5,812 nt of DNA, from contig JAJYPA010000517.1 of the NCBI GenBank assembly GCA_021795795.1, forward strand, positions 1 through 5,812, written 5' to 3'. Under the pieces are notes generated by a model. That model was not told the origin of the DNA. It searched no databases and saw only the letters and a list, made by a program, of their open reading frames with translations. This stretch comes from Pseudomonadota bacterium (GTDB lineage: Bacteria; Pseudomonadota; Gammaproteobacteria; Halothiobacillales; Halothiobacillaceae). Below are positions 2 through 5,619 of the stretch, piece after piece. Both the position numbers and the translations under genes were made by a program. Within the stretch, counting starts at the first letter, position 1, and every line of letters starts with the position of its first letter.

Positions 2-1552
2 TACAAGCAGTTCTCGCGTGATTTCTTTGACCTGATTATCATCGACGAATGCCATCGCGGCAGCGCAGCAGAAGACTCCGCATGGCGCGAGATACTGGAA
101 TATTTTTCATCGGCTACGCATGTGGGATTAACCGCCACGCCTAAAGAAACCAAGGATGTGTCCAGTATTCATTATTTTGGTGATCCGGTTTACAGCTACA
201 CCCTGAAGCAGGGCATAGAGGACGGCTTCCTGGCGCCATATAAAGTCATCCGCATCGACATCGACAAAGACGTGCAAGGCTGGCGTCCGAGCAAAGGCCA
301 AACCGATAAACATGGCAAGATAATTGCCGACCGGGTTTACAACCAGACCGATATGGATCGTACCCTGGTACTGGAAAAGCGCACCGAGCTGGTAGCCCGT
401 AAAATCACCGAATTTCTGGTCGCCACTGACCCTTACGCCAAGACTATCGTATTTTGCGATGATATCGACCACGCCGAGCGCATGCGCCAGGCTTTGGTCA
501 ACCTGAATCCCGAACGGGTGAAGGAAAACCGCAAATACGTGATGCGTATTACCGGCGACGAAAACGAGGGTAAAGCTGAGCTGGATAACTTTATCAACCC
601 GGAAGAACGTTATCCGGTAATCGCCACGACTTCCAAATTGATGACAACAGGTGTCGATGCGCAAACCTGCAAGCTGGTGGTACTTGACCAGCACATCAAA
701 TCGATGACGGAATTCAAGCAGATCATCGGGCGTGGCACACGCATCAATGAGGATTACGGCAAATATTGGTTCACCATCATGGATTTCAAAAAAGCGACAG
801 AGCTATTTGCCGATGAAGACTTTGATGGGCCGCCGATAGTTATTTATGAACCTGCAGCGGATGAATCGCCAGTGCCACCCGATGAGGATGAGGGGGCAGT
901 GACGGTTGATGAAAACGGTAACTTAGTCACGTTCGGTGAAACAGACACCGGAGACAATGCAGACCAGGATGAACCCAGCACCGGACGCATTAAATATGTG
1001 ATGGGCGACGTGACCGTGTATGTCGTCGCCGAGCGCGTGCAATATTACGGGCCGGATGGCAAATTGATTACCGAGTCGCTTAAGGATTACACGCGTCAGA
1101 CTGTGCGTAGGGATTATGCCTCGCTCAACGAATTCCTGCACAAGTGGACGACTGCTCAGCGCAAGGCCGTCATCCTGCAAGAGCTGGAAGCGCATGGCGT
1201 ATTGCTTGAGGCGCTGGCCGATGAAGTTGGCAAGGATTTCGATGCTTTCGACCTGATCTGCCACGTCGCTTTCGATCAGCCACCCCTGACCCGGCGCGAG
1301 CGCGCCGAACAGGTGAAGAAACGCAATTACTTTAGCAAATATCAAGGGAAGGCACGTAAGGTACTGGAAGCATTGGTCGACAAATATGCTGATACAAATA
1401 TTGAAAATATCGAAGATATAAAAATACTTAAAATTGATCCATTCCGACAGATTGGAACTGCTTCTGAATTGATTGGTGAATTTGGTGGGCGAGAAGCTTA
1501 TTTAAAAGCTATTCAAGAATTAGAAGAACAACTTTACGGTAGTTTATGTTAG
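2..1552 (+). CDS. hsdR: Type I restriction enzyme R subunit (EcoAI/EcoEI-like), 5'-truncated by window edge
   Basis: ATP-dependent translocase and restriction subunit of a type I R-M complex. The frame is open from base 2, so the visible part is 516 residues and the real start is upstream; the GTG at 122 lies inside a helicase motif and is not the start. Visible superfamily 2 helicase motifs are DECH (motif II, 44-55), TATP (motif III, 131-142), TTGVDA (motif V, 644-661) and QIIGRGTRI (motif VI, 719-745). An acidic, low-complexity linker (about 857-980) leads to an EcoEI_R_C-like C-terminal region. Family members are about 800 residues, so roughly 300 are missing, including the expected N-terminal nuclease domain and Walker A. 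The stop TAG (1550-1552) overlaps the next gene by 7 bp. From about 1380 the DNA turns AT-rich (hand count about 31% GC over 1381-1552, against about 54% over 1201-1380), though the protein still looks like a normal HsdR tail. Confidence 0.95.
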
Positions 1553-2367
1553 ATTCAAATCAACTCGAATACGAACTTATTCGTCGAAACTTCACGCTTA
1601 ACGTCGACAATACGCATGCCAGAGGATTTCTTAGCCCAGACGCACAGCAATTGGTTTATGTAAAGACCTCTCGAAATCGTAAACATGACCCACTTCTTCC
1701 TGTATTTAAGCAACCGCTCGTTTTACATTGGTCGGTTGAAAAGACGATTAATTTTCCTCAGTTGATTAAGTTAGTCCCAGCAACAGTGGGATATTGCAAT
1801 CACAATATGCGAGGATTTGAAGGGGAAGAGGGTAAAAAACCATATGGAATAGCCGTAGCCATTGAGTCTGGTAAAGTGCTTGATGAAATACTAAACCTTA
1901 TAAATATTATCCCAATACGGCGTGGCTCAGCATTTGAAGACATAGAGCAAGAGATGTCCGAGCTAAAAAAACTCTCAGAGACCACTCGAAAAACAATAAT
2001 TGATGCACGTCTTGGCCAAGGAAAATTCAGAGCTGACCTTCAAGCTTATTGGAAAGGATGCGCTGTTACCGGCTGTGCTGCATATAAAATGCTGCGAGCA
2101 TCACATATCAAGCCATGGCGTGATTCGAGTAATTCTGAGCGATTGGATCCACATAACGGACTTTTGTTGACTGCAAATTTGGATTTAGCTTTTGATCAAG
2201 GTTTAATAAGTTTTGACGACTTAGGTAACATCCTAATCAAAAAAGTACTTAGTAACGAAGACCTCAGTAATTTAGGTATTCGACCTGAAATGAAGTTGCG
2301 GGGAATTGAAGCGGAACACAAATTTTTTCTGACTGAACACCGCAGCATGAACCACTTTAAGAAGTAA
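1546..2367 (+). CDS. HNH endonuclease (HNH_2-like) inserted between hsdR and hsdM
   Basis: A 273-residue protein with a C-terminal HNH-type nuclease domain at about residues 155-225. It shows RLGQGKFR (155-162), a C-x4-C pair (C172, C177), SHIKPW (186-191, likely catalytic His187), DPHNGLLL (201-208, likely Asn204) and [12 protein letters not shown] (214-225), a pattern I recognise from the HNH_2 family. A late LTEHR (262-266) is also usual there. The N-terminal 150 residues match no domain I can name. They may bind DNA or sense a modified base, but that is a guess. The ATG overlaps the hsdR stop and has no convincing Shine-Dalgarno sequence at normal distance, so it is probably translationally coupled to hsdR; the next in-frame ATG is codon 88. 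GC is near 40% in sampled lines, lower than hsdM. It may be an accessory restriction nuclease, a modification-dependent nuclease or a passenger gene. The nuclease call is firm, the role is not. Confidence 0.85.
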
Positions 2368-3847: not shown

Positions 3848-5619
3848 GCAATGTTCAGCAATTGCTTATCGATCATCTGGACATTTGGACGGCTGCTGAC
3901 AGCGCAAAAAAAACCGGGCGCGGTCGTAGTTCGGGTAATGCAGCTAGTGTGTATGGCATCAAGAAACTGCGAGAGCTGATACTGGAACTGGCCGTGCGCG
4001 GCAAGCTGGTGCCGCAAGACCCGAACGATGAACCAGCCAGCGAATTGCTTAAACGCATTCAGGCTGAGAAAGCCAAGTTGGTTGCCGAGGGAAAGATTAA
4101 GAAAGATAAGTCACTGTTGCCGATAAACGATTACGAAATACCTTTCGAATTGCCCCAGGGATGGGTGTGGACAACATTGGCGTCTATATCACTTATTAAC
4201 CCTAGAAATAATGCAGAAGATAATTGCCCTGCCTCATTCGTAACGATGAGAATGATAGGAGCAGGGTTTAATTCTATGCACGATCATGAGATTCGTCTTT
4301 GGAAAGAAATTAAGAAAGGTTACACCCATTTTGCAGAGTGCGATATTGGGATTGCGAAAATTACACCATGCTTTGAGAACAGTAAGGCGTGTGTTTTTTC
4401 TGGGCTAGAAAATGGTATAGGCGCAGGGACGACAGAATTACATATTGTCAGGCCAATTAACTTAACTCTCGCACCACGCTATGTTTTGGCTTATTTAAAA
4501 TCCCCACAGTTTTTGCTGGTTGGGGAAACAAGAATGACTGGTACTGCTGGTCAGAAGAGATTGCCAAAAGAGTTTGTCGAGTTGAATCCATTTCCGTTGC
4601 CACCTCTTGCCGAACAACACCGCGTCGTCGCTAAAGTCGATGAGCTAATGGCGCTGTGCGACCAATTTGAAACCCAACACACTAACGCCGCAGTAGCCCA
4701 CGAAAATCTTGTGAGCCAACTGCTTAGCACACTTACCCAATCGCAAAGAGCAGAGGATTTCAACGCCAACTGGCAGCGCATCGCCGCTAATTTTGATACG
4801 CTGTTCACAACTGAAGCCAGTATCGACGCCCTTAAACAAATCCTGCTGCAATTGGCGGTAATGGGTAAACTCGTCCCGCAAGACCCGAACGATGAACCCG
4901 CCAGCGAACTGCTCAAGCGCATACAGGCTGAGAAGGCCAAGTTGATTGCTGAAGGTAAGATCAAGAAAGACAAGCCGCTGCCGCCGATAACTGATGAAGA
5001 AAAACCGTTTGAATTGCCGCAGGGCTGGGCATGGACAACATTGGCGTTTATATCACTAATTAACCCTAGAAATAATGCAGAAGATGATTGCTCTGCCTCA
5101 TTCGTAACGATGGCAATGATAGGAGTAGGATTTAATTCTATGCACGATCATGAGATTCGTCTTTGGAAAGAAATTAAGCAAGGTTTCACCCATTTTGCAG
5201 AGTCCGATATTGGGGTTGCGAAAATCACACCATGCTTTGAGAACAGTAAGGCGTGTGTTTTTTCTGGGCTAGAGAATGGTATAGGTGCAGGGACGACAGA
5301 ATTACATATTGTCAGGCCAATCAACTTAACTCTCGCGCCTCGCTATGTTTTAGCTTATTTAAAATCCCCACAGTTTTTGTTGGTTGGGGAAACAAAAATG
5401 ACTGGTACTGCTGGCCAGAAGAGATTGCCAAAAGAGTTTGTTGAGTTAAATCCATTTCCGCTGCCACCACTCGCCGAACAACACCGCATAGTCATCAAAG
5501 TTGATGAACTGATGGCGCTGTGCGGCCAACTACAATCGCGCATTGCTGGGGCGGCTCAGTTGCAGCAAAAACTGGCGGACGTGTTGATTAAGGAGACAGT
5601 AAGTTGTGATTCTAAATAG
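3844..5619 (+). CDS. hsdS: Type I specificity subunit with two near-identical target recognition domains
   Basis: Chooses the bipartite DNA target for the HsdM and HsdR subunits. At 591 residues it fits type IB subunits (EcoAI/EcoEI HsdS are about 590). Order: N-terminal conserved region (1-105, with YGIKKLRELILELAVRGKLV and PQDPNDEPASELL), TRD1 (about 106-259), central conserved region (260-393, helical spacer plus the second PQDPNDEPASELL), TRD2 (about 394-547), and a C-terminal helical tail ending in LQQKLADVL. Normally the two TRDs are unrelated and read different half-sites. Here residues 101-272 and 389-560 are identical at 159 of 172 positions, with an exact offset of 288 codons. TRD-core DNA is about 38-40% GC in sampled lines, against about 60% in the N-terminal scaffold, a usual sign of exchanged TRDs. 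The frame is intact with no stop, so it is probably functional. A run of eight A at 3906-3913 lies near the start. Confidence 0.97.
   Translation: MSNVQQLLIDHLDIWTAADSAKKTGRGRSSGNAASVYGIKKLRELILELAVRGKLVPQDPNDEPASELLKRIQAEKAKLVAEGKIKKDKSLLPINDYEIPFELPQGWVWTTLASISLINPRNNAEDNCPASFVTMRMIGAGFNSMHDHEIRLWKEIKKGYTHFAECDIGIAKITPCFENSKACVFSGLENGIGAGTTELHIVRPINLTLAPRYVLAYLKSPQFLLVGETRMTGTAGQKRLPKEFVELNPFPLPPLAEQHRVVAKVDELMALCDQFETQHTNAAVAHENLVSQLLSTLTQSQRAEDFNANWQRIAANFDTLFTTEASIDALKQILLQLAVMGKLVPQDPNDEPASELLKRIQAEKAKLIAEGKIKKDKPLPPITDEEKPFELPQGWAWTTLAFISLINPRNNAEDDCSASFVTMAMIGVGFNSMHDHEIRLWKEIKQGFTHFAESDIGVAKITPCFENSKACVFSGLENGIGAGTTELHIVRPINLTLAPRYVLAYLKSPQFLLVGETKMTGTAGQKRLPKEFVELNPFPLPPLAEQHRIVIKVDELMALCGQLQSRIAGAAQLQQKLADVLIKETVSCDSK
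3964..4665 (+). repeat. hsdS direct repeat, copy A (scaffold plus TRD1)
   Basis: First copy of an in-frame direct repeat with period 864 bp and no indels. Aligned by eye to copy B, identity is only about 52% over 3964-4011, about 84% over 4012-4158, 94% (395/420) over the TRD core 4201-4620 and about 80% over 4621-4665. Exact 23-bp identity occurs at 4012-4034 and 15-bp identity at 4609-4623, bracketing the TRD. Scaffold repeats are normal in type IB HsdS; the matching TRD is not. Confidence 0.95.
4828..5529 (+). repeat. hsdS direct repeat, copy B (scaffold plus TRD2)
   Basis: Second copy of the 864-bp-period repeat. The TRD core (5065-5484) differs from copy A at 25 of 420 bases, giving 10 amino-acid changes among residues 114-258 when residue 114 is included. 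The stretch equivalent to residues 171-229 is identical in protein over 59 residues. Bracketing exact matches lie at 4876-4898 and 5473-5487. Recombination between the copies would delete 288 codons in frame. Confidence 0.95.

Follow-up and report, generated by a model that had tools for sequence, protein, structure and literature searches.

Which DNA site would be read by a type I specificity subunit (HsdS) whose two target recognition domains (TRDs) are near-copies of each other, and how could such a protein have arisen? The question is raised by the hsdS gene of the window, by which is meant the whole stretch of 5,812 nucleotides analysed here. The first-pass annotation had located the two TRDs and predicted a palindromic target, and its coordinates and percentages are right: TRD1 and TRD2 are identical at 143 of 154 residues (92.9%) without a gap and in 93.5% of their DNA, at an offset of exactly 864 bp, or 288 codons.

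Four genes lie on the same strand of the window: hsdR, of which only the 3' part is present, an HNH_2-domain gene, hsdM and hsdS (Table 1). The HsdR, HsdM and HsdS genes thus occur together, with hsdR clipped by the window edge, and their products are assigned to type I restriction families by Pfam, PADLOC and NCBIfam. The partial HsdR scores 779 bits against the NCBIfam model NF046051 restrict_EcoAI (cut-off 550); the NCBIfam matches of HsdM and HsdS are under their cut-offs. The reading frames of hsdM and hsdS are intact, and the start of hsdS overlaps the stop of hsdM by 4 bases. HsdR is 61% identical to its counterpart in the EcoCFTI system of E. coli CFT073 over 525 columns and HsdM is 66% identical, both below the level of most enterobacterial type IB members, in which HsdM/HsdR identity is over 90% (PMC2481252). 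Judged by sequence, the operon is of the EcoAI-like, type IB restriction-modification kind; the likeness to EcoAI, a type IB enzyme with the site GAG(N7)GTCA, runs through the EcoCFTI sequence and not through EcoAI's own.

Table 1. Genes of the window and segments of HsdS, with window positions and supporting evidence
Feature	Positions	Strand	Evidence
hsdR 3' part, EcoAI/FtnUII-family restriction subunit	2..1552	+	ORF runs off window start; EcoEI_R_C 4.4e-35
HNH_2-domain gene, hsdR-hsdM interval	1546..2367	+	PF13391 2.1e-13
hsdM, N6-adenine methyltransferase subunit, 491 aa	2372..3847	+	N6_Mtase 2.3e-82, HsdM_N 7.5e-16
hsdS, specificity subunit, 591 aa	3844..5619	+	PF01420; PADLOC Specificity_I 4.9e-179
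Conserved repeat 5' of TRD1 (residues 39-100)	3958..4143	+	77% identical to residues 327-388
TRD1 (residues 106-259)	4159..4620	+	TRD1/TRD2 comparison; 57% identical to EcoCFTI N-TRD, 164 columns
Central conserved region (residues 260-388), sets TRD spacing	4621..5007	+	EQ-to-GKLV landmark distance 88 residues
Second conserved-repeat copy, inside central region	4822..5007	+	
TRD2 (residues 394-547), near-copy of TRD1	5023..5484	+	TRD1 sister, SH-aLRT 98
C-terminal conserved helix region (residues 548-591)	5485..5616	+	model helix 543-587

The HNH_2-domain gene has a 7-base overlap with the hsdR stop at its start and ends 4 bases 5' of hsdM, whereas no HNH gene is annotated between hsdR and hsdM in CFT073. 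It can be ruled out as a standard part of such operons, since a homologue is present in one of the 45 loci with a measured R-to-M gap. A homologue (53% identical) occupies the same hsdR-hsdM position in Undibacterium aquatile (L017), and none was found in the other loci of L001-L096, although some of these do not extend far enough to include the site, the gap being measured in 45. The product may be an accessory nuclease of an operon variant.

HsdS is a single uninterrupted frame of 591 residues with two TRDs, rather than a half-S protein with one. Its AlphaFold model (mean pLDDT 90.8, pTM 0.80) places helices at 255-299 and 324-340 in the central region, and the closest PDB folds are the S subunits 5ybb and 3okg. 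The conserved repeat at the N-terminus precedes TRD1, in agreement with the domain order given for EcoAI-like, type IB S subunits in the cited passage of PMC3874165. EcoCFTI has the same S architecture and the same length of central spacer, the EQ-to-GKLV distance being 88 residues in both proteins.

The next-best ungapped offset within the HsdS protein matches 15 of 154 residues, which excludes chance similarity of the two TRDs, and a repeat finder independently returned a 300-nt direct repeat (3982-4281 and 4846-5145, spacing 864, 85%) that takes in the conserved repeat and the beginning of the TRD. In ordinary S proteins, represented by 95 relatives with the window TRD once, TRD1 and TRD2 are 14-25% identical. 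The unusual similarity is confined to the TRDs; the similarity of the flanks and the offset are normal for this type of S subunit. The first-pass annotation had given the offset as exact, and this stands as a measurement but not as anything unusual: the inter-TRD offset is 289 codons in EcoCFTI and 264-289 codons in the other S proteins measured, and so it does not point to a tandem duplication of recent date. That an entire S half was duplicated is ruled out too, because the repeats outside the TRDs have diverged to the degree usual for single-copy S subunits (77% and 38% for the two flanking repeats of the window, against single-copy medians of 66% and 38%). Synonymous divergence between the halves (dS, Nei-Gojobori) is 0.20 in the TRD, 1.28 in the 50 codons before it (residues 51-100) and 1.06 in the 21 codons after it. 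The low value in the TRD and the high values in its flanks indicate that the TRD sequence was copied recently and that the flanking repeats kept their older divergence. One TRD sequence would have overwritten the other within hsdS, in an event delimited by the conserved repeats on either side of each TRD and proceeding by intragenic conversion or by recombination between alleles, leaving what would be the same half-site reader at both positions.

Relatives of the protein carry the same signature. A homologue search with the doubled HsdS as query scored 7,997 proteins, of which the best 120 were analysed, with TRD1/TRD2 identities taken from pairwise mapping (a MAFFT alignment of 294 proteins had misplaced TRD1). 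Among these best 120 of 7,997 the identity is bimodal, with 25 proteins including the window at 73-100% and 95 below 30%; besides the window, therefore, 24 of 119 homologues are doubled among the matches listed. In all 25 doubled proteins the similarity within the TRD pair exceeds that within each of the flanking repeats. Their repeat after the TRD is 31-56% identical, within the range of 94 single-copy S proteins (5-56%), and their repeat before the TRD is 47-90% identical, with 21 of 25 inside the single-copy range. The remaining four (P0025, which comes from Betaproteobacteria LSUCC0117, P0090, P0095 and P0105), at 82-90%, exceed the single-copy maximum of 81%, and in these the copied stretch may reach into the repeat before the TRD.

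The window TRD family occurs as a single copy at position 1 in 67 entries (EcoCFTI counted) and at position 2 in 29, and since single copies are found at both positions the family moves between them. In a tree of 146 TRDs the two window copies are sisters (SH-aLRT 98), the closest other TRD in the set being 85-86% identical to them. The label doubled or single needs seven changes on this tree, which was built from 142 columns and has 63 of 126 inner branches unsupported; on the strength of these changes, doubling has probably had several origins. Near-DNA matches in E. coli are limited to an 88-bp conserved segment among the best 20 of 54, the four matches in phage records are all under 60% identity, and the plasmid search gave no S protein above 53% over most of its length among the matches listed.

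Because a doubled query favours doubled homologues, the frequency of doubling was estimated from three samples unselected for it. For sample (a) the central region and the N-terminal region were each used as a separate query, which gave 190 distinct proteins besides the window among the matches listed. After five with one mappable TRD each were left out, none of the 185 measurable proteins had a TRD1/TRD2 identity of at least 35%. The window TRD family is missing from 174 of the 190 and present once in 16 (also among the 120), so that what this sample shows concerns chiefly S subunits of the same kind with other TRDs. Sample (b) consisted of PF01420 frames from 369 genomes of one class, with 90 loci (30 given and 60 taken in score order among the matches listed; same-frame second matches, one contig-edge fragment and one match with an internal stop were skipped). 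Seven loci had no 300-aa frame and were left out, and none of the 83 usable ones reached at least 50% over 80 residues. For sample (c) a single TRD served as query against 399 genomes of an order and 369 of a class, which gave 46 loci with 45 distinct frames (two of them fragments under 250 aa), of which one is doubled; samples (b) and (c) have genomes in common. The doubled frame (L230/L232, genome G305, C3:51416-52447) is a 432-aa S frame with two TRDs that are 75% alike over 144 residues and distantly related to the window TRD (36%), and by these comparisons it is a case of doubling in another S lineage. Its genome is within the set of sample (b), yet the locus is outside the 90 of that sample. 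Doubling therefore amounts to about 2% or less in samples (a)-(c), in keeping with the rarity that had been supposed for doubled TRDs.

The predicted site follows from the homology of the TRDs and from their spacing. Over 164 columns, the whole TRD length, each window TRD shows 57% identity to the N-TRD of EcoCFTI; against the C-half of EcoCFTI, TRD2 is 22% identical and TRD1 matches only a 16-residue conserved edge. EcoCFTI restricts at GAG(N7)GTCA according to the cited passage of PMC8287963, where SMRT sequencing of plasmids from a strain given the EcoCFTI hsd locus is described as showing only the expected motif, with the data unshown there. EcoAI has the same site as EcoCFTI, and the cited table of PMC3874165 assigns GAG to its N-TRD and TGAC to its C-TRD, with a methyl interval of 9. 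As the two enzymes share one site, the N-TRD of EcoCFTI can be taken, within the reach of these sources, to read GAG. In the folded S subunit the TRDs would face opposite ways along the DNA, so that a pair of equal specificity would read an inverted repeat. The half-site would most likely be GAG, as for the homologous N-TRD of EcoAI and EcoCFTI, and two GAG readers, the second inverted, at the type IB spacing would give 5'-GAG(N7)CTC-3', with the adenine of each half methylated. This site retains the methyl interval of 9, and with it the prediction of the first-pass annotation can be sharpened from a palindrome of unspecified letters to GAG(N7)CTC by way of EcoCFTI and EcoAI.

The two levels of this prediction differ in strength. 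TRD1 and TRD2 are likely to be identical in predicted specificity, and a palindromic bipartite site is considered probable, with good though incomplete confidence; expression and activity of the enzyme are presumed here. That the site is exactly GAG(N7)CTC, in half-site and spacer, is an evenly balanced judgement. The half-site is less sure than the palindrome: EcoCFTI departs from the window TRD2 at three of 49 columns that are nearly invariant in the family, two of them in the NPRN motif, and for this reason an identity of 57% may be too low for GAG to be transferred. The motif itself is absent from the window, where 0.74 occurrences are expected, so that its absence is uninformative. A literature text search for GAGN6CTC, GAGN7CTC, GAGN8CTC and their spelled-out forms returned none, in a search that bracketed or marked-base forms would escape. 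The literature searched yielded no methylome for any relative closer than EcoCFTI. The cited part of a paper on Aeromonas veronii C4 and a paper on Aeromonas hydrophila YL17 give no palindromic type I motif, neither strain being known to carry the doubled S found in Aeromonas.

The principle that a doubled TRD leads to a palindromic site is already published, and the window would be a rare further case. Btr188II of Bibersteinia trehalosi has two imperfect copies of one TRD and, when cloned, methylates the palindromic ACG(N6)CGT (PMC4996451). The HsdS of the window is of the same kind, with two near-identical TRDs (92.9% over 154 residues) in a full-length S. Btr188II and Btr192III, both type I with the site ACG(N6)CGT, are likened to it here by their description; they differ in their M-S-R order with intervening ORFs and in their half-site (PMC4996451), and the Btr188II site was shown by cloning and methylome whereas that of the window is predicted. 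Together with the inverted geometry of S subunits, the Btr188II experiment supports by analogy the palindromic site that had been predicted. The S subunit of M.BstXI, as described in the cited passage of PMC3874165, also has two similar TRDs, both evidently reading CCA, and a symmetric site, although it is part of a type II system with a type I-like methyltransferase and the window is type I. With Btr188II and BstXI as full-length, two-TRD precedents, at least in the passages cited, the remark of the first-pass annotation that palindromic sites are better known from half-S proteins is not borne out. Half-S dimers such as NgoAV and the truncations EcoR124I(delta50) and EcoDXXI obtain a palindrome through two copies of one TRD (PMC3874165, cited passage), but there the TRDs lie on two chains, one on each, and in the window both are in one chain. 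EcoCFTI, which shares the S architecture, has two unrelated TRDs and, in the source passage cited above, an asymmetric site, unlike the near-identical TRDs of the window. Movement of a TRD between positions 1 and 2 (DOMO) is described for Helicobacter pylori and others in the cited passage of PMC3077401; there the type IIG allele HPV225_1544 has one TRD sequence at both positions, with no specificity given for it in that passage. A signature of TRD copying over 25 doubled proteins was not met in the literature passages cited, nor was the proposal, made below, that such a gene could shed 288 codons in frame and as a half-S still recognise its site.

The differences between the two copies bear on whether they still read the same half-site. 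TRD1 and TRD2 differ at 11 residues, 10 of which are within residues 106-170, the N-terminal part of the TRD; replacements and silent changes stand at 10:3 in this part and at 1:14 in residues 171-259 (Fisher p 0.00027, for a split picked after the data had been seen). The cluster could represent specificity drift, in which one TRD would keep the former half-site and its partner, TRD1 with its Arg136 being the likelier of the two, would be moving to a related one, giving a near-palindromic but asymmetric site. TRD2 has Ala at the position of Arg136, and Arg is uncommon there in the family (8 of 144 other members), which fits such a course. The differing columns, however, are tolerant ones (mean entropy 1.89 vs 1.03, p 0.0035), and at all 49 columns that are nearly invariant in the family the copies agree. 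At residues 158, 160 and 170, moreover, TRD1 agrees with EcoCFTI and TRD2 carries the residue that is more common in the family, and Btr188II is palindromic despite its imperfect copies (PMC4996451). Drift already advanced this far is thus regarded as rather unlikely, and two readers of equal predicted specificity remain the preferred interpretation.

Two further readings question whether the doubled gene exists, or matters, in a cell. An assembly could have joined two strains at the conserved central region, one having the TRD in position 1 and the other in position 2, in which case no cell would carry both. The ingredients for this are present: the window contig is the sole source of this HsdS sequence among the matches listed; the TRD family is single at either position in relatives (67 and 29); and the central region is conserved among them. 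The two copies, however, are sisters, about 92% alike as against 86% or less to any other TRD in the set; their longest common exact run is 48 bp, so that long k-mers tell them apart; and a collapsed or repeated read would have yielded identical copies. That the arrangement does exist in other organisms is clear from doubled S genes in Mb-sized contigs of Aeromonas hydrophila (P0014, 4.77 Mb) and Desulfobacter hydrogenophilus (P0081, 5.1 Mb), and a strain chimera is considered distinctly unlikely. It is less probable still, to the point of being hardly credible, that the gene is a non-functional intermediate in which conversion destroyed a useful specificity and left the system silent or decaying. 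The window begins inside hsdR, and the upstream part of that gene is outside the view, which leaves some room for such a state. Against it stand the intact hsdM and hsdS frames, the confident HsdS model (pLDDT 90.8) and the 14 silent changes to one replacement in the C-terminal part of the TRD, as expected under selection after the copying. Recent overwriting of one TRD by the other in a presumably working gene is therefore preferred to both.

The specificity proposed for this uncharacterised enzyme, GAG(N7)CTC, is explicit, comes from sequence alone and can be tested cheaply; it would also test whether TRD specificity is transferable across 57% identity and from the first TRD position to the second. 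The 25 doubled S proteins document TRD copying in relatives and provide a list for seeking palindromic type I sites in existing methylomes. Copying of a TRD onto its partner might also be a recurrent route to palindromic sites in type I systems, with the doubled state as a specificity-neutral bridge from full-length asymmetric S subunits to natural half-S systems and as a start for drift, an idea that is put forward tentatively and is doubtful as it stands. If it were true, an in-frame loss of 864 bp (288 codons) between the TRDs would leave a 303-aa half-S that would dimerise and read the same site, and one of the doubled copies could come to read a new half-site while the enzyme stays functional.

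Some minor features of the window protein and its relatives may be recorded. At residues 166 and 454 (4339-4341 and 5203-5205), TRD1 has Cys and TRD2 has Ser where 136 of 144 family members have Gly. Seven relatives (P0056, P0073, P0095, P0098, P0118, P0049 and P0078) are long, at 771-809 aa; their last S landmarks are near residue 555-603, leaving a C-terminal remainder of about 200 residues or more, and a Pfam scan of P0056, P0073, P0095, P0098 and P0118 gave nothing besides Methylase_S. In five others of 402-417 aa (P0156, P0173, P0196, P0224 and P0275) only the first TRD could be mapped, and these may be contig-end fragments or shortened S proteins. P0121 contains the central conserved region twice (36-99 and 317-380) and P0122 contains it at 259-329 and a second time at the end of the protein; this pattern points to three-TRD S genes truncated by contig ends.
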